Shown here piece after piece: positions 9,685-21,199 of a stretch of DNA of 37,119 nucleotides. The stretch covers positions 1 through 37,119 of the forward strand of contig JABDIY010000201.1 in assembly GCA_013003535.1 (NCBI GenBank), read 5' to 3'. Positions within the stretch are counted from its first letter, which is position 1; every line of letters begins with the position of its first letter. The translations under genes and the position numbers were made by a program. The notes beneath the pieces are model-generated. The model was not told the DNA's origin and did no database searches. It saw only the letters and a list, made by a program, of their open reading frames with translations. The DNA is from Acidimicrobiales bacterium (GTDB lineage Bacteria > Actinomycetota > Acidimicrobiia > Acidimicrobiales > SZUA-35).

Positions 9685-10670
9685 TCAACCACCGCTGAGC
9701 TCGACGGGTCGGGCTGCGAGCGCTGCCGAACGACCTCAAAACAGGCGGCCGAGGTTGCCATGGCCACGTTCAGACTATTCAGCTGGCCCAGCAACGGCAG
9801 ACTAGCGAGCACGTCGACACGCTTGCGCACCAACTGCGAGAGCCCTGCGCCTTCAGCGCCCAAGACCAACGCCACCGGCCGGCGCCCGGAAAGGTCCACA
9901 TCGAATATGCGAATTGGGGCATCTGCTTCCAGACCGACGGTCAGAACTCCCGCGTTGGAGAGTTCGGTGAGCGCGGCGGGCACCCCACCGACCAATCCCA
10001 TCGGCAAATGCTCGATTGCACCAGCAGCGGTTTTCGTAACAGTAGGGCTCACGTGAACGGCCCGGTGCCGGGGCAACAGCACACCGGTGACCCCGGCACA
10101 TTCGGCGGTGCGCAAAATGGCACCGAGGTTCTGCGGGTCGGTAATGCCGTCCAGTACGAGCAGGAATGGGTTGCGTACCGAAAGAAGGTTTGACAGCGAC
10201 CGCTCTTGGAGCGGTTTGGCCTTGGCCAGCACGCCCTGATGACTCATGGTGAGGGCATCGGCATCGAATCGTTTACGCGTGACCGACTTCAGCGGGATCT
10301 GTAGATCAGCGGCAAGTTCACGGATGTCAGTGAGGATGTCGGCGTCGTCCAGGTCCTCGATGATCAGTATCTCGTTGACCGGTCGCTTCTGAGCCAGGAG
10401 AAGCTCTCGGACCGCTTGCCGACCCTCCACCTGGTCTCCCCCCAAACCTTTCTTGGCAGCTTGTTTGCGGTTGGAGCGGGGCTGGGATCGGGCGCTGGGT
10501 TTGCCTCCCGAACGACGCTTACGGACCCGTGGCTCCGCGGTATCGCGGACTACGGGTCGGGTGCCCCGCGCCCCTTGCCCGCGCTTGGGGCCGCGTGAAC
10601 CGGGACCGGTTTGTTTCGGCGCCCCGCGGGCCCCACCCCGCCCGCCCTTGCCTTTGTTGCTCTGATTCAT
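9681..10670 (-). CDS. rlmB: SpoU-family 23S rRNA 2'-O-methyltransferase (RlmB/TrmH-type)
   Basis: 329 aa. Residues 1-78 are a Gly/Arg/Lys-rich disordered tail, probably RNA-binding. A SpoU substrate-binding domain follows (VEGRQAVRELL onward), then the knotted SAM-binding domain with motif 1 (LDGITDPQNLGAILRTAE), motif 2 (LVLGAEGAGLS) and motif 3 (LNSLNVAMATSAACFEV). Family members methylate a guanosine ribose in 23S rRNA (RlmB, Gm2251) or other RNA sites, so the exact target is uncertain. The ATG at 10670 overlaps the ispDF stop as ATGA, so I prefer it to the upstream in-frame start. It is third in the crp-like/ispDF/rlmB operon. Downstream it converges on the small membrane protein gene with overlapping stops. 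Confidence 0.9.
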   Translation of the reverse strand: MNQSNKGKGGRGGARGAPKQTGPGSRGPKRGQGARGTRPVVRDTAEPRVRKRRSGGKPSARSQPRSNRKQAAKKGLGGDQVEGRQAVRELLLAQKRPVNEILIIEDLDDADILTDIRELAADLQIPLKSVTRKRFDADALTMSHQGVLAKAKPLQERSLSNLLSVRNPFLLVLDGITDPQNLGAILRTAECAGVTGVLLPRHRAVHVSPTVTKTAAGAIEHLPMGLVGGVPAALTELSNAGVLTVGLEADAPIRIFDVDLSGRRPVALVLGAEGAGLSQLVRKRVDVLASLPLLGQLNSLNVAMATSAACFEVVRQRSQPDPSSSAVVD

Positions 10671-11809
10671 GGTCCCACCATCAAGACGGTGGCAAAACAC
10701 TGGACACCTTCAGCCAGCGCGGTGACACCCTCGGTTCGTTTGCCCTTTATTGTGACCGGTCCGCCCGCTGCCTCGGACAGGTTGATCTCCATAGCCTCTC
10801 GCTCCGCGGAGATTTTCGGCGCATCCAACACCACCGTGCAATCCGCATTGATGATCGTCCATCCCGCCATCCGCAACCGCTCGGCGGCTAAACGCAGGAG
10901 CTCGATACTGCTGGCTCCTTCGAAACGGGGGTCGGTGTCAGGGAACATCACGCCGATATCGCCCATGCCGGCAGCGCTGAGCATGGCGTCGATGACCGAA
11001 TGAGCGATGACGTCGGCGTCGCTGTGGCCACGTAACCCGCTCGCATCCGGAAACACCACTCCGCCCAACACGAGTTGGCGGTGGGGATCGGCGGACCAAC
11101 GGTGCACGTCGAAACCTTGACCGGTACGCAGTCGACCGAACTCTGCTGATGGTTGCATACCCATGAGTATCCCCGCCACGGCGAGGTCCGGTGCGACGGT
11201 GACCTTGATGTTTTTCGGGTCACCAGGCACGGTTGTGACGGTGCCCCCCATGGCGCTCACCAGTGTTGCATCGTCGGTGGCGTCACCGCCAGCACGATAG
11301 GCGGCCATGATCACCCCGAAATCGAATCCCTGCGGCGTCTGGACACCGACGAATTGAGTGCGATCCACCGGTTCCCCGCCTACCGATCGTAGTGAATCCG
11401 TGACCGGAACAACCGGAACAACTGCCTGGGCACCTGAATCGAGGGCGTCGCGTACACGCTCCACAACCTCGGGGGGAACAGCCGGGCGGGCGGCGTCGTG
11501 GATCAGAACATGGCTGGGGTGCAGATGAGCAAGCGCATCGAGACCTGCTTTGACCGAAGCCGATCGGGTGGAACCCCCTGGCACCACCACGGTCACCAGG
11601 TCGGCATGCTCACTGCGATGGTCCTCCACGAACCCATCGGGCGCCACCACGATCACGGCCTCACTGACGGCTGCGACCGCCCGCACCGAGTGCTCCAACA
11701 CTCGGATGCCCCCGATCCGACGAAGCTGCTTGGGAACCTGTCCCGCTTCCCCGACTGTTCCCATGCGGGAACCAGTTCCTCCCGCTACCACGATGGAGCA
11801 TAAACGCAT
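10667..11809 (-). CDS. ispDF: Bifunctional IspD-IspF of the MEP isoprenoid pathway
   Basis: 380 aa. The N-terminal IspD cytidylyltransferase (about 1-215) shows VVAGGTGSRMG, PKQL, HDAARP, VQTPQGF and DDATLV. The C-terminal IspF cyclodiphosphate synthase (about 225-380) shows GQGFDVHRW, LRGHSDADVIAHSVIDAML, GDIGVMFPDTDP and KGKRTEG. The fusion catalyses steps three and five of the pathway from MEP to IPP/DMAPP; the intermediate IspE is not in the window. The open frame extends 44 codons further upstream, into the regulator gene. ATG 11809 is chosen because it gives MRLCSIVVAGGTGSR, the normal N-terminus, 7 nt after the crp-like stop. Its isoprenoid product supplies the polyprenyl synthase at 20207. 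Confidence 0.93.
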   Translation of the reverse strand: MRLCSIVVAGGTGSRMGTVGEAGQVPKQLRRIGGIRVLEHSVRAVAAVSEAVIVVAPDGFVEDHRSEHADLVTVVVPGGSTRSASVKAGLDALAHLHPSHVLIHDAARPAVPPEVVERVRDALDSGAQAVVPVVPVTDSLRSVGGEPVDRTQFVGVQTPQGFDFGVIMAAYRAGGDATDDATLVSAMGGTVTTVPGDPKNIKVTVAPDLAVAGILMGMQPSAEFGRLRTGQGFDVHRWSADPHRQLVLGGVVFPDASGLRGHSDADVIAHSVIDAMLSAAGMGDIGVMFPDTDPRFEGASSIELLRLAAERLRMAGWTIINADCTVVLDAPKISAEREAMEINLSEAAGGPVTIKGKRTEGVTALAEGVQCFATVLMVGP

Positions 11810-11816
11810 CGACGGT

Positions 11817-12476
11817 TTATCGGGCTCGGAGCTCCAGTTGAGGGCGGTTTCGGATGTGGTAGCGACGGTCCCGTTGCTCGATCCAACCGAGACGCACGAA
11901 GCTGGCAATGGCTTTGTTGACCCGTTCCCGGCTGGCACCAACCATCCCGGCTAGTTCTTCTTGGGTTACGGGCAGGGCGAAGTCGTCGCTGTCACCAGCG
12001 ATTTCGAGAAGGCGTTTGGCGGTTCGGCCGGTGACGTCGAGAAAGACAGAGTCCGCCAGAACGCCATCCATTGCCCGCAACCGGCCGGCAAGAAGAGCTA
12101 CCACCCGCCACAGCTGCGAGGGCTGCTCTTCATAAAGTCGCTTCAGGGGGCCGTAGGGAATCACCAGGACCTCTGAGGGTTCCAGCGCCCGCCCATCGGT
12201 AGATCGGTTGGCTTTGTCGAACAGGGGCATCTCACCGAAGAGGTCGCCCCTTTCCATCAAAGCGACCACGCTCTCTCTGCCATCGATCGAACGGTTCACC
12301 ATTGCGACGCGACCTGAGAGCGTGACGTAGAGCTCGGCCGGTTCGTCGTCTTCCCTGAACAGAACGTCACCCCGTTTGAGTTTCTTCATCTCCGACTGGG
12401 CAGCGATCACCGCCAGGGTGTCGGTATCCAACTCGGAGAACAACTCGACTTCGGAAAGCATCGCCGGATCAATCAC
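11817..12476 (-). CDS. Crp/Fnr-family cyclic-nucleotide-responsive regulator (GlxR/Crp-like)
   Basis: 219 aa. A cyclic-nucleotide-binding beta-barrel (LKRGDVLFREDDEPAELYV, GDLFGEMPLFD) and a long dimer helix lead to a winged helix-turn-helix (LPVTQEELAGMVGASRERVNKAIASF) resembling actinobacterial GlxR/Crp. The start is not certain. I favour GTG 12476, 6 nt after a TACGGT -10 box. ATG 12491 lacks any signal; ATG 12461 has AAGGAGG but at a long spacing of 14. A Crp-type palindrome at 12498-12513 lies over the likely -35 region, suggesting autoregulation. It is first in the operon with ispDF and rlmB. Confidence 0.9.
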   Translation of the reverse strand: MIDPAMLSEVELFSELDTDTLAVIAAQSEMKKLKRGDVLFREDDEPAELYVTLSGRVAMVNRSIDGRESVVALMERGDLFGEMPLFDKANRSTDGRALEPSEVLVIPYGPLKRLYEEQPSQLWRVVALLAGRLRAMDGVLADSVFLDVTGRTAKRLLEIAGDSDDFALPVTQEELAGMVGASRERVNKAIASFVRLGWIEQRDRRYHIRNRPQLELRAR

Positions 12477-12603: not shown

Positions 12604-13953
12604 ATGGCAAAAAACTCCAAGCAATACCTTTGTTCCAACTGCAGCCGGATCCATGGCAAATGGTCCGGTCGTTGCGATCACTGCACAGAGTGGGGAACTT
12701 TGGGCGAGCGGCCGGCGTCGGCGGCCTCGGTGGTGCGATCCCCCACCGACACCGAGCGCCTGTGCGACGTCGACCAGGCTCAGTCCATCCCGGTTCCCAC
12801 CACCGTCGAGGAAATCGACCGCGTGCTCGGCGGCGGTTTTGTTCCGGGTTCGGTGACGCTCTTGTCTGGTGAACCCGGAATCGGAAAGAGCACGTTGGCG
12901 CTCCAGTTGGCCCTGCGGATCGCCAGAAGCGGAGCGGGAGTGGTGCTCGTCTCGGGTGAAGAAGCTCCTGCTCAGGTGGCGGCCCGTGCGTCTCGTATTC
13001 ACCAACACCGAGAAATGCCACAGACGGTCGAGATACTGGACACCGTCCGAACCGAAAGTGTGATCGACCTCATGGAGCGATCTCGACCGCAGATGCTGGT
13101 GGTCGATTCGGTGCAGATGCTCACCTTTGGAGACGATTCATCGTCGCCCGGTTCGGCCAACCTTCTCCGCACCGTTGCTGGTGCATTGGCCGATGCCGCC
13201 AAAGCTCTGGACGTCTCTCTACTGCTCATCGGACACGTCACCAAGGACGGCAGCCTGGCGGGGCCACGGACGCTCGAGCATCTTGTCGACACGGTGCTGA
13301 GTTTCGAGGGCGACCGTAGTAACGATCTTCGCTTTCTCCGTTCCATGAAACACCGGTTTGGTCCCACCAACGAGGTGGGACTCTTCGAGATGGCAGGAAC
13401 GGGTCTCCGGCCGGTGGCCGATGCCAGCGCACGCTTTCTCGCTGACCGCAACCCCGACCTACCCGGCACCGCTGTGGTCCCCGTACTCGATGGCCGCCGG
13501 CCGGTGATGGTGGAGATCCAGGCGCTGGTCCGACGTTCAGGGGACTCGGCCATCACTGGCCACGGCGTTCCCAGCGGCCGGCTCAATCTCGTTGCCGCCG
13601 TCGCTCGCCAGTACCTGACCGGGGTCATGACCGGTGCCGACCTTCTCGTGTCGGCCGCAGGCGGAGCCAAGATCACCGACCCCGGGGCTGATCTGGCCAT
13701 GCTGGTCGCTTCAGTTTCAGCCCAGCTGGAACTTCCTCTTTCTCCCGGACTGGCCGTGTGCGGTGAGATCGGTCTCAGCGGTGAGCTTCGGCGAGTCGCA
13801 TCAATGGAACGGCGGCTGCACGAAGCGCACAGGTTGGGATTCACTCACTGCATTGTGCCTCGGTCCTGCCCGGACGGTCCCACTGGGCTCAGCCTCCAGC
13901 GGTGCGCAACAATTATGGAAGTTATCCAACTGTTCGCCGGTGTACCTGCCTGA
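12604..13953 (+). CDS. radA: DNA repair protein RadA (Sms)
   Basis: 449 aa, normal length. The N-terminal zinc finger has Cys10, 13, 24 and 27 (CSNC, CDHC). The RecA-like ATPase has Walker A GEPGIGKST (89-97) and Walker B MLVVDSVQ. The RadA motif is KHRFG here, where the common form is KNRFG. The C-terminal Lon-protease-like domain includes AVCGEIGLSGELRRV. It promotes branch migration during recombination; the Bacillus homologue interacts with DisA, which is the next gene here. A GGAG sits only 2 nt before the ATG. TAGGTG at 12572-12577 may be its -10 box. Confidence 0.96.
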   Translation: MAKNSKQYLCSNCSRIHGKWSGRCDHCTEWGTLGERPASAASVVRSPTDTERLCDVDQAQSIPVPTTVEEIDRVLGGGFVPGSVTLLSGEPGIGKSTLALQLALRIARSGAGVVLVSGEEAPAQVAARASRIHQHREMPQTVEILDTVRTESVIDLMERSRPQMLVVDSVQMLTFGDDSSSPGSANLLRTVAGALADAAKALDVSLLLIGHVTKDGSLAGPRTLEHLVDTVLSFEGDRSNDLRFLRSMKHRFGPTNEVGLFEMAGTGLRPVADASARFLADRNPDLPGTAVVPVLDGRRPVMVEIQALVRRSGDSAITGHGVPSGRLNLVAAVARQYLTGVMTGADLLVSAAGGAKITDPGADLAMLVASVSAQLELPLSPGLAVCGEIGLSGELRRVASMERRLHEAHRLGFTHCIVPRSCPDGPTGLSLQRCATIMEVIQLFAGVPA

Positions 13954-13972
13954 TTCGGAACTCGATCGCAAG

Positions 13973-13978
13973 TACACT
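13973..13978 (+). promoter_or_regulatory. -10 box of disA
   Basis: TACACT, 6 nt before the ATG at 13985; disA may therefore have its own promoter besides readthrough from radA. Confidence 0.4.
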
Positions 13979-13984
13979 ACGCAG

Positions 13985-15064
13985 ATGGGACACACTTCTG
14001 AGCGAGCACTTCTGCGGGTTCTCGCTCAGATCGCTCCCGGTACGCCTCTGCGGGAAGGCCTGGATCGTGTGCTCCAATCCGGTCGTGGTGGGCTGATCGT
14101 CGTAGGCGACAGCCCCGAAGTTCTCAATATCTGCTCCGGCGGGTTCCTGTTGGACTCAGCATTCACCCCGCAGCGTCTCGCCGAAGTCGCAAAAATGGAC
14201 GGGGCGATCATTCTTGCCCCGGACGCCAGCCGGATCGCACGGGCCAACGTGCATCTTGTTCCTAATCCCAACGTGCCCACATCGGAAACCGGTACCCGTC
14301 ACCGGACCGCGGAACGGGTAGCTCGATCGCTCGACGTTGCCGTCGTCGCGGTTTCTCAGAGCCGGAAAGAAATCCAGGTCTACATATCTGAGGATCGTCA
14401 CTCCCTAGAGCCGGTCAGCCGCCTGCTGGAACGCTCCAACCAGGCGATTCAGACCTTGGAGCGGTATCGGAGTCGCCTCGGTAGCGTCTCAGCAAATCTT
14501 TCCGCCCTCGAGGTAGAGAACCTTGTGACCCTCCGTGACGTGGTAGAAGTCCTCCAACGCACCGAGATGGTGGCCCGAATCGCCAACGAAATCGAGCTCA
14601 ATCTGGTGGAGCTCGGCTCTGATGGTCGCCTCGTGCGCCTCCAACTCGAAGAACTTATGGGCGGCGTGATCGACGATCGACGCCTGCTGATCCGTGACTA
14701 CTTCACCGAAGACGCGGGCTTCCATATCGAACAAGCCATGGATGCTCTCGCCGAATTGAGTGACGATGCGCTGTTCAACGAAGAGGTCCTTGCCAAGACT
14801 CTGCACCTCTCGGCCTCGGTCACAGATCTCGATGGCTCGTTGGAATCTCGGGGGTATCGACTCCTTTCCAAGGTCCCCCGACTCACGCCGATGATGGTGG
14901 ACGACATCGTTGAGCGATTCGAGAACCTCGATGCGGTTCTGGGGGCTACCGCAGCCGAACTTCAGGAGGTCGAGGGAATCGACCCGTTCCGGGCCCGGAG
15001 CGTGAAAGAGAGCCTCACCCAGCTGGTCGAAACGTCTATTCTCGACCGGCTCCAACGGTCCTGA
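13985..15064 (+). CDS. disA: DNA integrity scanning diadenylate cyclase DisA
   Basis: 359 aa, the usual length. It makes c-di-AMP from two ATP and pauses at branched DNA. The DAC domain has the two signature motifs DGA (72-74, MDGAIILAPD) and RHRTAER (105-111). A helical spine and a C-terminal helix-hairpin-helix DNA-binding domain (LLSKVPRLTPMMVDDIVERF, LQEVEGIDPFRARSVKESL) follow. The open frame runs upstream into radA, but ATG 13985 gives the family N-terminus and has a well-placed -10 box. It is 31 nt after radA, on the same strand, and converges with the HAD fusion gene. Confidence 0.96.
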   Translation: MGHTSERALLRVLAQIAPGTPLREGLDRVLQSGRGGLIVVGDSPEVLNICSGGFLLDSAFTPQRLAEVAKMDGAIILAPDASRIARANVHLVPNPNVPTSETGTRHRTAERVARSLDVAVVAVSQSRKEIQVYISEDRHSLEPVSRLLERSNQAIQTLERYRSRLGSVSANLSALEVENLVTLRDVVEVLQRTEMVARIANEIELNLVELGSDGRLVRLQLEELMGGVIDDRRLLIRDYFTEDAGFHIEQAMDALAELSDDALFNEEVLAKTLHLSASVTDLDGSLESRGYRLLSKVPRLTPMMVDDIVERFENLDAVLGATAAELQEVEGIDPFRARSVKESLTQLVETSILDRLQRS

Positions 15065-15085
15065 TCTCAACGAACAAACCGACCA

Positions 15086-16606
15086 TCAGTTGACGGTTGC
15101 CTCGGCGGGAACGTCGGGCACATCGAAACTCCGCAGAATCGAATGGCCCCGCGCCTCGTCGGCTGCCGCGTCGGGAGCAAACCATGCCGTCCGATACCCC
15201 AAGGCGCGGGCGGCGTCGAGGATGTCCAACTGGTCGTCGACCACCAGAATGTTGGCCGGCGGTTCTCCCGTGAGGCGGCGCAACACTTCGAAAATGGGCC
15301 GGTCCGGCTTCCGAACGCCCACAGCCCCGCTGATCACCCACGGGTCGATCAGCGTGTCGAGACTGTGACGCTTCCGCAACTTCCGCACCCATGCGGCGGA
15401 GTCATTGGTGATACAGGCCACCCGAACTTCTCGGTCTCGGAGTGATCGGAGAAATCGAACCACGCCAGGCATCAAGGCGTGGAGAGAGAGGTACTCATCA
15501 TCGAGCTCGTCCGGATCGCCTTGCACCCCGACCGCCGCCCAGAATGCGGCTGGTTCGATCCGGCCCAGACTGAGCTGGCGGGCCCGGCTGGCGATCTCAT
15601 CCGCGGTGAGGTGGGACCCTCGCTCAAAACAAAAGGGGACCAGCACATCGGCTACGTCGGCTGCGGTTCCATAGAGAACACCCATTCCGTCGAGGGCTAC
15701 GACGGTGGGATTGGCCGAGACGGGCACCTCAGCTCCGCTCTCGGTGAGCACGAGCTCATGGGTACCTTTCTTCGGAGCCCGTGCCGAGGGGCGCTTGGCG
15801 ACCGGTTTAGCCCTCGCTTGCTGGCGCCTCTGAACCACCCGCAGCGCTACTGACGCGGCCACCAATAGAGCCAGGATGCCAGCAATAACCGAAACGCCTA
15901 GGGCCACCAGCGCTCCGATCTCGCGGGTGGTGGACTCAGATCGAACCGAGACCGGTTGGGTTGCCGCCAGAGATGTTTGCCAAAAGCGCGTGCTTGATTC
16001 GGCCGCAAGATCAGAGCGCACGCCGTTGGAACCCTCAGGAGGAATCTCACCCGGCAATGTTACGGAAAGCCCGATCGAGGCTTGCGTGAGGTCTGCCCCC
16101 AACCGGGCCGCGAATGACTCCAGCGACTCCCCAAGAAGAACGTCGAGTCCGCTATCGGTGAATGAGGCCATACCAGCTGGTGCGATTTGACCGGTCACCT
16201 CGTATTTCACCTGTGCGAAGCTGTTGATGCGTTCCAATTGGAAGTCGGAAAAAAGCATCCCGTCGCTGATGTCAGCCATCACTTCGCTGAACTGGGCGGG
16301 GTTGGCAAAAGCCTTTCTGGCCTGAATTCGGGTCCTCCCGTCATCGGTGAGCTCTCGCGGTTCCACCACCCAGCCCGCCGCCCGTACGTCGGCCAAAGCG
16401 ATCCCTGCAGACTCGAGATCGGGTAGCTGACCCGCCACTTCGGGGTCAAGGATCAGCGCTACCTCCACCGTTCCAGATCCGTCTTCGGCCACGATGATCG
16501 CCGTCACCACTTCAGCGTTGCACGCCGACAGCATCAGTAACGCCGCGCCAAGGAGCAACAGCCGCAACATATTCAGCAATCGGAAACGAGATTTTGCCGA
16601 GTTCAC
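15086..16606 (-). CDS. Lipoprotein (LppM-like) domain - transmembrane helix - HAD hydrolase fusion
   Basis: 506 aa. A lipoprotein signal ends in a lipobox (LMLSAC, Cys 29). An extracytoplasmic LppM-like domain (about 30-200) with DGSGTVEVAL and ADVRAAGWVVEP follows. Then come a transmembrane helix (about 229-258), a basic linker (RRQQARAKPVAKRPSARAPKK) and a cytoplasmic HAD domain (about 300-495). HAD motifs: I ALDGMGVLY (nucleophile Asp306, second position Met as in DxYGTL dehalogenase-type enzymes rather than DxD), II CITND, III VGVRKPDRP, IV VVDDQLD. Start GTG 16606 has TAGTCT 7 nt upstream; earlier starts fall within the clpC terminator hairpin. Substrate unknown. Confidence 0.8.
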   Translation of the reverse strand: MNSAKSRFRLLNMLRLLLLGAALLMLSACNAEVVTAIIVAEDGSGTVEVALILDPEVAGQLPDLESAGIALADVRAAGWVVEPRELTDDGRTRIQARKAFANPAQFSEVMADISDGMLFSDFQLERINSFAQVKYEVTGQIAPAGMASFTDSGLDVLLGESLESFAARLGADLTQASIGLSVTLPGEIPPEGSNGVRSDLAAESSTRFWQTSLAATQPVSVRSESTTREIGALVALGVSVIAGILALLVAASVALRVVQRRQQARAKPVAKRPSARAPKKGTHELVLTESGAEVPVSANPTVVALDGMGVLYGTAADVADVLVPFCFERGSHLTADEIASRARQLSLGRIEPAAFWAAVGVQGDPDELDDEYLSLHALMPGVVRFLRSLRDREVRVACITNDSAAWVRKLRKRHSLDTLIDPWVISGAVGVRKPDRPIFEVLRRLTGEPPANILVVDDQLDILDAARALGYRTAWFAPDAAADEARGHSILRSFDVPDVPAEATVN

Positions 16607-16613
16607 CGCTTTG

Positions 16614-16619
16614 AGACTA
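16614..16619 (-). promoter_or_regulatory. -10 box of the LppM-HAD gene
   Basis: TAGTCT on the minus strand, 7 nt before the GTG at 16606. Confidence 0.45.
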
Positions 16620-16639
16620 CTTTCCACCGTGACGCGACA

Positions 16640-16672
16640 CTGCGGATGGGTTACCACTGAACCCATCCGCAG
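16640..16672 (-). terminator. Terminator hairpin after clpC
   Basis: A perfect 13-bp inverted repeat (CTGCGGATGGGTT / AACCCATCCGCAG) with a 7-nt loop, 33 nt past the clpC stop and just before the next promoter. There is no U tract, as is frequent for actinobacterial terminators. Confidence 0.7.
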
Positions 16673-16704
16673 CGCCGTGTTGTACAGATTGGGGCCGGCG
16701 GACC

Positions 16705-19236
16705 TCAGTCGCCTGTTTCGGCGAGTTCGGGGGTGGACGGCGGCACAAATCCCTCGTGAGCAGTGAAGGACAGGTCCTTCTCATCACCTTCGGTGTCTGC
16801 GACGTCGACAACGATGATCTGGCCCGCCCGGAATTCTTTGTAGAGGAGTTTCTCCGACAGCGTGTCTTCGATCATTCGCTGAATCGCTCGCCGAAGCGGT
16901 CGAGCGCCCATCGTGGGGTCATACCCCCGATCGGCTAGAAGGTGTTTGGCTTCCACCGTGAGCTCGAGACCAATCCCCTGTCCCTCCAGTTGAGCGGCGG
17001 TTCGTTTGATCATGAGGTCCACGATCTCGGTGACTTCGTCTCTGCTCAGCTCATGGAAGACGATGGTTTCGTCGACACGGTTGAGGAACTCGGGCCGGAA
17101 ATGCTCCTTGAGGGCATCGTTGACCTTTTCCTTCATCCGCTCATACGAGACTGCCTCGTCAGAGCTGCCGAAGCCAATGTTGGCCTTGCGGAGGTCTCGA
17201 GTACCGAGGTTTGAAGTCATGATGAGTACGGTGTTCCGGAAATCGACCGACCGGCCGGCGGAATCAGTGAGGCGACCCTCTTCCAGGATCTGGAGGAGCG
17301 TGTTGAAGACGTCGGGATGAGCCTTTTCGATTTCGTCGAAGAGCACCACGCTAAACGGCTTCCGGCGCACCGCTTCGGTGAGCTGACCGCCTTCTTCGTA
17401 TCCGACGTAACCAGGGGGAGAACCGACGAGCCGGGACACGGTGTGTTTTTCCATGTACTCCGACATGTCCAGGGTGATCAGCGCATCTTCGTCGCCGAAG
17501 AGGAACTGACTGAGCGTCTTGGCCAACTCAGTTTTCCCGACGCCGGTGGGGCCGAGGAAAATGAACGAACCCGAGGGTCGCTTGGGATCCTTGAGCCCGG
17601 CCCGAGTGCGGCGAATACTTTGGGAAACCGACTTGATGGCGTCTTGCTGGCCGATGACCCGCAGATGCAGCTCGTCTTCCATCCGGAGCAGCTTCTCGGT
17701 CTCTTCCTCGGTGAGTTTGTAAACGGGGATACCGGTCCAGATGCTCAGGACTTCGGCGATGGACTCTTCGTTCACCTCGTCGAACAGGTCCACACCGGAC
17801 GCCTTGATCTCCGATTCCAGCTCGGCCTTTTGCGCAAGAAGTCCTTTTTCCTCGTCGCGTAAGTTGCCGGCAGCCTCGAAGTCTTGGGACTCCACGGCCT
17901 CCTTCTTCTTCTCGACGATGGCGGCAAGTTTCTGCTCGACCTCTTTGAACTCCGGTGGCGTGGCCATGCGTTTGATACGAAGGCGGGAACCGGCCTCGTC
18001 GATGAGGTCGATCGCTTTGTCTGGCAGTTGACGATCGGCAATATAGCGATCGGCCAAGTTGGCTGCTGCAACGAGAGCCTGATCAGTAATGGTCACCCGG
18101 TGATGGGACTCGTACCGGTCACGCAGGCCTTTGAGGATTTCAATGGTGTGTTCCACCGTGGGCTCCTCGACCTTGATCGGCTGGAAGCGACGTTCGAGGG
18201 CGGCATCTTTCTCGAGATGCTTGCGGTACTCATCGAGCGTGGTGGCGCCGATCGTCTGCAACTCACCCCGGGCCAACATTGGCTTGAGAATGCTGGCGGC
18301 ATCGATTGCACCTTCGGCGGCACCGGCGCCAACCAAGGTGTGGATCTCGTCGATGAAAAGGACGATGTCACCCCTGGTCTTGATCTCTTTGAGGACCTTC
18401 TTCAGTCGTTCTTCGAAGTCGCCTCGATACCGGGACCCGGCAACGAGGGCGCCGAGGTCCAACGTATAGAGCTGCTTGCCATCAAGGGTCTCGGGCACCT
18501 CGTCGTTGGCGATCATCTGGGCGAGCCCCTCGACGATCGCGGTTTTTCCAACGCCGGGCTCGCCGATGAGCACGGGGTTGTTCTTGGTCCGGCGACTGAG
18601 AACCTGCATCAAGCGCTCCGCCTCGCGTTCGCGGCCGATCACCGGGTCCAGCTTCTTTTCGCGGGCCAGTTGTGTCATGTTTCGACCGAACTGATCCAGG
18701 ATGAGCGATCCGGACTGTGTATCTCCTCCGGTGCCCCCGGCGGTGGCACCCGCTTTGCCACTTCCCTCGCCGGGCGCGGAACCTTGGCTGGATGGACCGG
18801 AGTAGCCCGACAATAGTTGGATGACCTGCTGACGCACCCGGGATAGGTCAGCGCCGAGTTTCACGAGAACCTGGGCCGCGACGCCCTCGCCCTCGCGGAT
18901 CAGACCCAGCAGGATGTGCTCGGTTCCTATGTAGTTGTGGCCAAGCTGGAGCGCTTCACGCAGTGATAGCTCCAGCACCTTCTTGGCGCGCGGTGTGAAC
19001 GGAATGTGGCCGCTCGGAGAGCTGGAACCCTGGCCGATGATGTCTTGAACCTGCTCGCGTACTGCTTCGAGACTGATCGACAGCGATTCAAGGGCTTTGG
19101 CGGCAACGCCCTCACCTTCGTGGATGAGACCCAACAGGATGTGCTCGGTACCGATGTAATTGTGATTGAGAAGACGGGCTTCTTCTTGAGCAAGTACGAC
19201 GACTCGGCGGGCTCGGTCTGTGAAACGTTCGAACAT
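16705..19236 (-). CDS. clpC: Clp protease ATP-binding subunit ClpC
   Basis: 843 aa AAA+ unfoldase that feeds ClpP. Two N-terminal Clp_N repeats (about 1-145, both with [14 protein letters not shown]) and a Gly/Ser linker precede AAA+ domain 1 (Walker [23 protein letters not shown]). The UVR-type middle domain characteristic of ClpC ([19 protein letters not shown]) follows, then AAA+ domain 2 ([29 protein letters not shown]) and the C-terminal ClpB-D2 domain. The ATG at 19236 has GGAGG five nt upstream, so this gene uses a conventional leader. Unlike Bacillus, no ctsR/mcsAB genes adjoin it. radA and disA, which follow clpC in Bacillus, are nearby but on the other strand. Confidence 0.98.
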
Positions 19237-20206: not shown

Positions 20207-21199
20207 CTAGGAGATCGATACGGCGGCCGATGCCAGCAAATGATCGCAGGCGGCGCTCAAAGCAGTGGCCGATTCATTGGAGCTAACGGTGGCGAGAACA
20301 TCCTTGGCCTCGGCCACAAAGCTGCCGGCCACGGCGAGAGCCGACGCCACCCCGGTTCCGTTGCGAACGATCTCGATTGCTTCCAGTCGGTGCGCCTCGG
20401 ACATTTCATCGGTGAGAAGTGGTCGAAGCGCCGGTCCGGCGGGTGAGGCCAATGTGTGAATCACCGGCAGCGAATAGACGCCTTCCATCATGTCATTGCC
20501 GGCTGGCTTCCCGAGCTGCTGGTCCGAGGCGGTCACATCGAGGATGTCATCCACCACTTGAAAGGCCATCCCATAGAGCCGGCCGAACTCGGTGAGAGCA
20601 TCGATCGCCCCGCGAGGCTGTCCGCTGACAATTCCGCCAATTCGGGCAGCAGCCGCGTACAGAGACGCTGTTTTGCCTTCGATGCTCGGGAAGTACTGCG
20701 ATTCGCTGCGTTGGGTGTCATACATCGTCTGGAGCTCACCGACCTGACCCTGACAGAGATGGCCGATGGTGGTAGCCAGCAATCCCGCCACCTCCACGCC
20801 GAGATCGGCGGCGATTTCGGAGGCCTTTGCCAAAAGGTAATCGCCGGCCAGGATTGCCCGCAGATTTCCCCAGCGAGCGTTGACGCTCTCCACTTGACGA
20901 CGCAGAACGGCCTCGTCCATTACGTCGTCGTGGTAAAGGCTGCCGATGTGAACCAACTCCACCGAGACACCACCGCGGACAACGTCGAGATGAACCGGTG
21001 TGCCATCGGGAAGGGCGCAAGCAGCAGCCGCGATCGCGAATCGGGGGCGAAGCCGCTTTCCCCCGGCCTTGATGAGATGGGCGGCAATCTCGGTGAGGTA
21101 GGGATCGCCGTCGATATGGACCGTGGACAAAAGGGTGTCCTCGACCCGCTTCGTGTCGGCGGCCGCCGTTGGCAGGCTTGTGAGAGGGTTCGGAGCCAC
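20207..21199 (-). CDS. Polyprenyl diphosphate synthase (trans-isoprenyl chain elongation)
   Basis: 330 aa. It condenses isopentenyl diphosphate onto an allylic primer to make a long-chain prenyl diphosphate, probably for the menaquinone side chain. Visible: GGKRLRPRF (IPP binding), first Asp-rich motif HDDVMDEA (LYHDDVMD), GDYLLAKA, GKTASLYAAAA and second Asp-rich motif QVVDDILDV. Residues before the first motif (SVELVHIGSLY) have small/medium side chains, which fits long products; length cannot be fixed by eye. The start is GTG 21199, with TAGCCT 7 nt upstream. It uses products of the MEP pathway represented by ispDF. Confidence 0.92.
   Translation of the reverse strand: MAPNPLTSLPTAAADTKRVEDTLLSTVHIDGDPYLTEIAAHLIKAGGKRLRPRFAIAAAACALPDGTPVHLDVVRGGVSVELVHIGSLYHDDVMDEAVLRRQVESVNARWGNLRAILAGDYLLAKASEIAADLGVEVAGLLATTIGHLCQGQVGELQTMYDTQRSESQYFPSIEGKTASLYAAAARIGGIVSGQPRGAIDALTEFGRLYGMAFQVVDDILDVTASDQQLGKPAGNDMMEGVYSLPVIHTLASPAGPALRPLLTDEMSEAHRLEAIEIVRNGTGVASALAVAGSFVAEAKDVLATVSSNESATALSAACDHLLASAAVSIS

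Follow-up and report, generated by a model that had tools for sequence, protein, structure and literature searches.

The window analysed here, the whole stretch of 37,119 nucleotides, carries on its minus strand an open reading frame (16666..15086) of 526 codons with no internal stop, whose product is predicted to join a lipoprotein domain of the LppM fold, through one membrane helix, to a HAD hydrolase domain (Table 1). An earlier note on this DNA had started the protein at GTG 16606; this codon does lie inside the frame, but in the three same-genus copies homology begins at query residues 29-35 of the 526-codon frame, which favours ATG 16570 (residue 33 of that frame) as the likely start. 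All residue numbers below are counted from this ATG, in the 494-residue form. A promoter and terminator scan of the locus performed at about the level of chance (0 promoter-like signals versus 0.4 expected, 2 terminator-like signals versus 1.6 expected).

Table 1. The fusion gene, its predicted parts and its neighbours in the window (residues numbered from ATG 16570).
Feature	Position	Strand	Basis or remark
LppM-TM-HAD fusion CDS	15086..16570	-	Likely start ATG 16570, 494 aa; ORF open to ATG 16666
Signal peptide with lipobox LSAC (Cys17)	16520..16570	-	Family alignment
Predicted extracytoplasmic LppM-fold domain, residues 19-215	15926..16516	-	AF2 model, 2nc8 fold match, PF21946 hits in relatives
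Single transmembrane helix, model helix 218-250 including basic end	15821..15919	-	Hydrophobicity and model
Linker to HAD, residues 251-285, first part basic, low model confidence	15716..15820	-	
C1-capped HAD-IA domain, residues 286-482, predicted cytosolic	15125..15715	-	Profiles and 3cnh fold match
HAD motif I, D294-G-M296-G	15680..15691	-	D, M and G in 30/30 aligned rows
HAD motif III, Lys421	15308..15310	-	30/30 aligned rows
HAD motif IV, Asp445-Asp446	15233..15238	-	30/30 aligned rows
clpC-type Clp ATPase (Clp_N, AAA, AAA_2)	16705..19236	-	Upstream neighbour, same strand as fusion
disA (DAC and DisA-linker)	13952..15064	+	Convergent with fusion gene
radA-type ATPase	12604..13953	+	Beside disA; Pfam AAA_25 and KaiC-type ATPase only; named by eye and place

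The architecture proposed in the earlier note, one polypeptide with a lipobox, an LppM-like outer domain, one transmembrane helix and a HAD domain carrying motifs I-IV, was borne out in each of these parts. The lipobox cysteine is present in 29 of the 30 aligned family copies, the thirtieth (L028) being truncated at its start, and an Lgt gene is present in the window's genome. The membrane-spanning part is a hydrophobic segment at residues 220-238, with Kyte-Doolittle values of up to 2.75, followed by a basic stretch. Together, lipobox, helix and basic stretch are compatible with the LppM domain lying outside the cell and the HAD domain in the cytosol; this outside-in arrangement would be set by the lipid anchor together with the helix, provided that the basic linker is inside. 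The AlphaFold model of the full protein reached a mean pLDDT of 83.8, with values below 50 at linker residues 252-280, and a pTM of 0.46, so that the model leaves uncertain how the two domains are placed relative to each other.

Modelled alone, the outer domain gave an AF2 pLDDT of 92.3, and a second-look structure aligner matched it to M. tuberculosis LppM (2nc8) with a Z of 13.0 and an rmsd of 3.5 over 147 of 171 residues at 18% identity, the runner-up fold reaching a Z of 7.5. Plain Foldseek returned no match at E <= 0.001 for this domain, and LppM was absent from its first 50 rows; likewise, neither the window protein nor its outer domain was hit by the PF21946 profile, whose gathering score they do not reach. 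The same profile hit 26 of the 101 aligned relatives at E values up to 0.1 (best 1.7e-7), while any other family hit at most 2 of them. The LppM identity cannot be read from the window sequence alone; it is supported by the relatives' profile hits and by the fold. A sequence search of the PDB with the outer domain yielded one chance row only (6js9, E 0.48), and no NCBIfam model was common to the outer domains. Oligosaccharyltransferase subunits stand next after LppM in the fold list, at a Z of 7.5 and below, which may be chance.

The window protein has the lipobox and the outer fold in common with M. tuberculosis LppM (Rv2171, PF21946), but, unlike it, runs on through a helix into a HAD domain. 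Passages of PMC6151718 report that LppM binds phosphatidylmyoinositol mannoside (PIM) and link it to blocked phagosomal acidification, and an lppM mutant is treated in part of PMC2936551. In those passages PIM binding concerns the M. tuberculosis protein only, to which the window protein is here likened by fold and lipobox.

The HAD domain scored 50.9 bits with PF00702 (cut-off 26.4) and 40 bits with TIGR01509 (cut-off 29.4), and its best fold match was 3cnh, with a Z of 21.3 and an rmsd of 2.3 over 185 aligned residues. With HAD subfamily IA variant 3 (TIGR01509; 3cnh, YihX) it shares the fold, the cap type and the places of motifs I-IV, which read DGMG, TND, RKP and DD in the window; it differs from that subfamily in the methionine at position +2 of motif I and in being fused behind a membrane helix. 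The motif II threonine is kept in 29 of the 30 aligned family rows, and all 34 distinct family HAD sequences retain the motif I aspartate, the lysine and the aspartate pair. At motif I +2, 32 of these 34 have methionine, one has proline (L056) and one leucine (L062).

According to the parts of PMC12715507 consulted, the second aspartate of the D-x-D motif serves as the acid/base in HAD phosphatases. This residue is missing from the window's family, where methionine takes its place in 30 of 30 aligned rows. A D-x-M-G motif occurs in 38 of the 73 HAD sequences compared, stand-alone HADs L107-L109 included, and the lysine and the aspartate pair accompany it in 38 of 38; the methionine is therefore a trait of an intact lineage and by itself no sign of decay. 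Four further sequences with the aspartate, lysine and aspartate pair intact carry arginine (two), proline or leucine at this position, and the generic HADs of the same genomes, judged by eye, also vary there (e.g., DFGG and DLTG). The HAD of the window's family retains Asp294, Lys421 and Asp445/446, and it probably hydrolyses a phosphorylated metabolite, methionine standing in place of the usual second aspartate.

From the DGMG motif the earlier note had instead drawn dehalogenase-type or unusual chemistry. The fold does lie near that of the L-2-haloacid dehalogenases (1zrm, Z 19.9), but phosphatase-type structures match at similar Z, the dehalogenase model TIGR01428 gave 31.6 bits against a cut-off of 125.4, and D-x-M-G is common to stand-alone relatives with a full catalytic set. 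The dehalogenase reading was accordingly rejected as very improbable. The window HAD fell below the cut-off of every equivalog model listed, haloacid dehalogenase type II among them. Its profile retrieved no row from the PDB at 1e-8 and, at 1e-3, 19 sequences that do not fix the substrate. Among the neighbouring genes are a polyprenyl synthetase (20207-21199) and an IspD-IspF fusion ORF (10667-11941), from which an isoprenoid was considered as a speculative substrate of the HAD.

The closest HAD relatives found beyond the order are the stand-alone proteins L107, L108 and L109 of the phylum sample, which share D-x-M-G and the full catalytic set with the window HAD but, unlike the window protein, are encoded by ORFs of 197-214 aa that have no lipoprotein portion. 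Two of these ORFs (L107:1048-1641 and L108:1486-2130) are each flanked by carA and carB, recognised by the Pfam families CPSase small and large chain, and come from two genera of family f99. A plasmid search with L109 returned 96 records, all below 60% identity, and the 15 of these listed were named 'HAD family' at best; a viral scan yielded no match.

In 33 of the 37 genomes from the window's GTDB family, one ORF carries both halves, mostly as single matches (G008, G018 and G032 were checked separately, and the start of the G030 copy is missing because its contig ends there). In two more (G016 and G035), the outer domain reads into the start of the HAD before the contig ends, and the remaining two (G004, 81% complete, and G024, 55% complete) gave no match at fusion level. 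In the terms of the earlier note, close relatives encoding the halves as two separate genes would have refuted it; this arrangement was seen in none of the 37. A scan of named genomes retrieved 32 loci, all from MAGs titled Acidimicrobiales, Acidimicrobiia, Acidimicrobiaceae, Actinomycetes or Actinomycetota, many of which are the same genomes as the family set; 31 of these loci hold both halves in one ORF (L058 being cut at its start), and the other (L062) is cut by a contig end. That two genes had been joined by a frameshift, a sequencing error or an assembly error can be set aside with near certainty, since the same join recurs in 33/37 family genomes and in 31/32 contigs of the overlapping named set, and nothing was found in its favour.

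In the order sample (148 genomes), the outer domain was detected in 91 genomes (E <= 1e-6) and the HAD in 40 (E <= 1e-25), and all 40 HAD matches share one open frame with the outer domain, although in G121 only part of that domain is on the contig with the HAD. The other 51 of the 91 genomes have the outer domain but gave no such HAD match (E <= 1e-25), with contig ends cutting at least three of the 51 (G045, G081 and G159); the HAD is therefore dispensable for the lipoprotein's common role. Across the phylum sample (296 genomes), the HAD appeared at E <= 1e-18 in five genomes, two with fused and three with stand-alone copies. In each genome the scans scored only the top first-look candidates (about 8-24), which makes an absence weak evidence, especially in the phylum samples.

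In a HAD tree with eight generic outgroup HADs, the fused HADs fall on one side of a branch with a support of 87, outside which lie the stand-alone and generic HADs; the tree is compatible with a single origin of the fusion, though not proof of it. The outer-domain tree required seven changes between fused and lone states and has many weak forks. Pieces shorter than 150 residues and most family copies were left out of the outer-domain tree, outer-domain matches below 60 bits out of alignment A4, matches below 80 bits out of the HAD comparison, and the G127 sequence and most family copies out of the HAD trees. On these sequence comparisons, the LppM-TM-HAD protein is the product of a real, old and conserved gene fusion.

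Unexpectedly, and beyond what the earlier note had noticed, the catalytic residues of the fused HAD have been lost repeatedly outside the window's family. Of the 35 such fusions in the order sample, 19 carry another residue in place of the nucleophilic aspartate (9 Gly, 6 Glu, 3 Asn and 1 His), 15 retain the aspartate, and in one (L170) the position falls outside the match; only five, from families f24 and f27, have the aspartate, lysine and aspartate pair all intact. The motif version is mostly uniform within a family (GGV/IG in f54, GGPG in f44, GGWG in f56), f17 and f52 being mixed. Mapped on the HAD tree, loss of the full set takes four changes, of which the starred branches alone force one, and replacement of the nucleophile takes eight. 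A single clade for all 19 sequences with a replaced nucleophile was rejected (p-AU 3.4e-5, for a group chosen after tree inspection and with the motif columns kept in). From this repeated loss it follows that catalysis is optional for the architecture.

The decayed domains nevertheless appear to be maintained. Five positions (W57, W107, L164, A167 and G171 of the A3 model) are identical in all 31 sequences whose catalytic set is incomplete, a group that includes G127 and the f26 sequences with DN or DT that might still work. Pairwise dN/dS (NG86) was computed for 12 pairs, in six of which dS exceeded 1 or was not computable for both domains, so that the values are rough. The four close pairs with dS below 0.75, three with a lost nucleophile and one with a lost lysine and aspartate pair, displayed HAD dN/dS values of 0.013-0.191, each below that of the outer domain. 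Values for the HAD versus the outer domain were 0.013 versus 0.082 for L072/L074, 0.033 versus 0.116 for L084/L089, 0.191 versus 0.214 for L113/L117, 0.115 versus 0.238 for L113/L122 and 0.106 versus 0.403 for L077/L081. The opposite trend was seen in L090/L132, where the decayed HAD gave 0.302 versus 0.217 for the outer domain (outer dS 1.04). In the close pairs tested, the decayed HADs are by this measure under purifying selection, and the low values in the tested pairs argue for their retention in a role beyond catalysis.

This pattern bears on a simpler explanation, in which the lipoprotein part does no more than hold a conventional HAD phosphatase against the cytosolic side of the membrane, without relaying any signal, the phosphatase activity having become dispensable in other lineages. 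Such a tethered hydrolase agrees with the HAD being the most conserved part of the protein in the window's family (mean column identity, A3 73% versus A2 53%) and with the complete catalytic set in every distinct sequence of that family; it sits less well with several families that lost the catalytic residues and kept the domain, and with the purifying selection in the tested pairs. We consider it possible, but rather doubtful.

Fused or lone, the gene mostly sits next to clpC, downstream of it. At the 31 family loci L031-L061, clpC is upstream in 29 and disA is downstream on the same strand in 26; the window (12604-19236) and L041 depart from most family loci, where all these genes point the same way, in that disA and radA are turned against clpC and the fusion gene and converge on the latter. 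Bacillus has the gene order clpC-radA-disA. Beyond the window's family, neighbours were counted in 89 genomes of the order and phylum samples, with outer-domain matches below 55 bits dropped and at least 400 nt of flank required. There, an upstream clpC in the same orientation was counted in 29/32 fused and 45/54 lone genomes; on the downstream side, again with the strand shared, radA was counted in 15/32 fused and 38/51 lone genomes and disA in 2/32 and 27/51, both counts being lowered by short flanking stretches. Another gene arrangement is found in G054.

An alternative raised by these neighbours is a role as membrane adaptor or regulator of ClpC or DisA, for which the HAD fold would provide a docking surface. 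The association with clpC across fused and lone genomes speaks for this partnership, as does that with radA and disA. However, the argument is one of gene neighbourhood throughout, the cluster forms an old operon in other bacteria as well, and of 18 outer-domain loci (those of the phylum sample and one second copy, out of 20 loci) only L188, from the same class, has clpC, radA and disA together in the DNA covered. Accordingly, we regard a ClpC or DisA partner as unlikely.

To the reading that the protein is a single-pass coupler between envelope and cytosol, as the earlier note had also suspected, we give an even chance. Here, the LppM-fold domain would bind or sense an envelope lipid or glycolipid on the outside, as PIM for M. 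tuberculosis LppM, the helix and linker would relay the state of the outer domain inward, and the HAD would answer inside, by hydrolysis in the window's family and elsewhere only through binding or docking. The sensing step is proposed because of the lipid binding reported for LppM, and the answering step because of the pattern of decay and constraint. In the sister families, the HAD would have been made repeatedly into a likely pseudo-hydrolase and yet retained, such that the common role would be binding or docking, with catalysis optional.

A membrane coupler of a sensor and a HAD is already known as an idea from CARF-HAD (Chp) of type III CRISPR systems, described in passages of PMC12715507 as a membrane protein that joins a sensor to a HAD phosphatase, in a manner like that of the proposed coupler. 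In the same passages, alanine changes of conserved HAD residues left its toxicity in place, whereas deletion of the HAD abolished it. CARF-HAD differs from the window protein in its four predicted helices, its cOA-binding CARF sensor (cA4) and its reversed domain order (PMC12715507, in the parts consulted), and Pfam found no CARF domain in the window protein. For the LppM-HAD fusion, no description was found among the openly licensed papers listed on LppM, HAD pseudoenzymes, HAD motif I and clpC-radA-disA. If the coupler is real, LppM-fold lipoproteins, whose role is poorly understood, would have a means of acting on the cytosol from outside, and a single receptor with HADs both intact and decayed would offer a natural set for separating catalysis from signalling. 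It would also draw attention to a hitherto unstudied membrane protein in the surroundings of clpC, radA and disA, from a family represented here only by MAG records.

More tentatively, and with the odds against it, the gene could encode an order-wide LppM-fold transmembrane receptor beside clpC, radA and disA, in which the HAD was repeatedly turned into a pseudo-hydrolase signalling module and, in family f51, decayed or was replaced by a dienelactone hydrolase (DLH), an unrelated hydrolase of the alpha/beta type. The f51 genomes concerned (G086, G127 and G159) are 83-89% complete. In G086 (L161), one ORF encodes the outer domain, the helix and a DLH domain (PF01738, 70.7 bits); in G127 (L194/L197), one ORF, which gave no outer-domain match, combines a helix pair with a DLH and with the remnant of a HAD whose catalytic set is incomplete; and in G159 (L195), the DLH is a separate ORF behind the helix. 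Family f51 would thus present a switch in the type of cytosolic hydrolase, from HAD to DLH. A different variation is seen in family f56 (L113, L117 and L122), whose fusion ORFs of 784-885 codons have a linker longer than usual, with about 250-280 residues separating the helix region from the decayed HAD.
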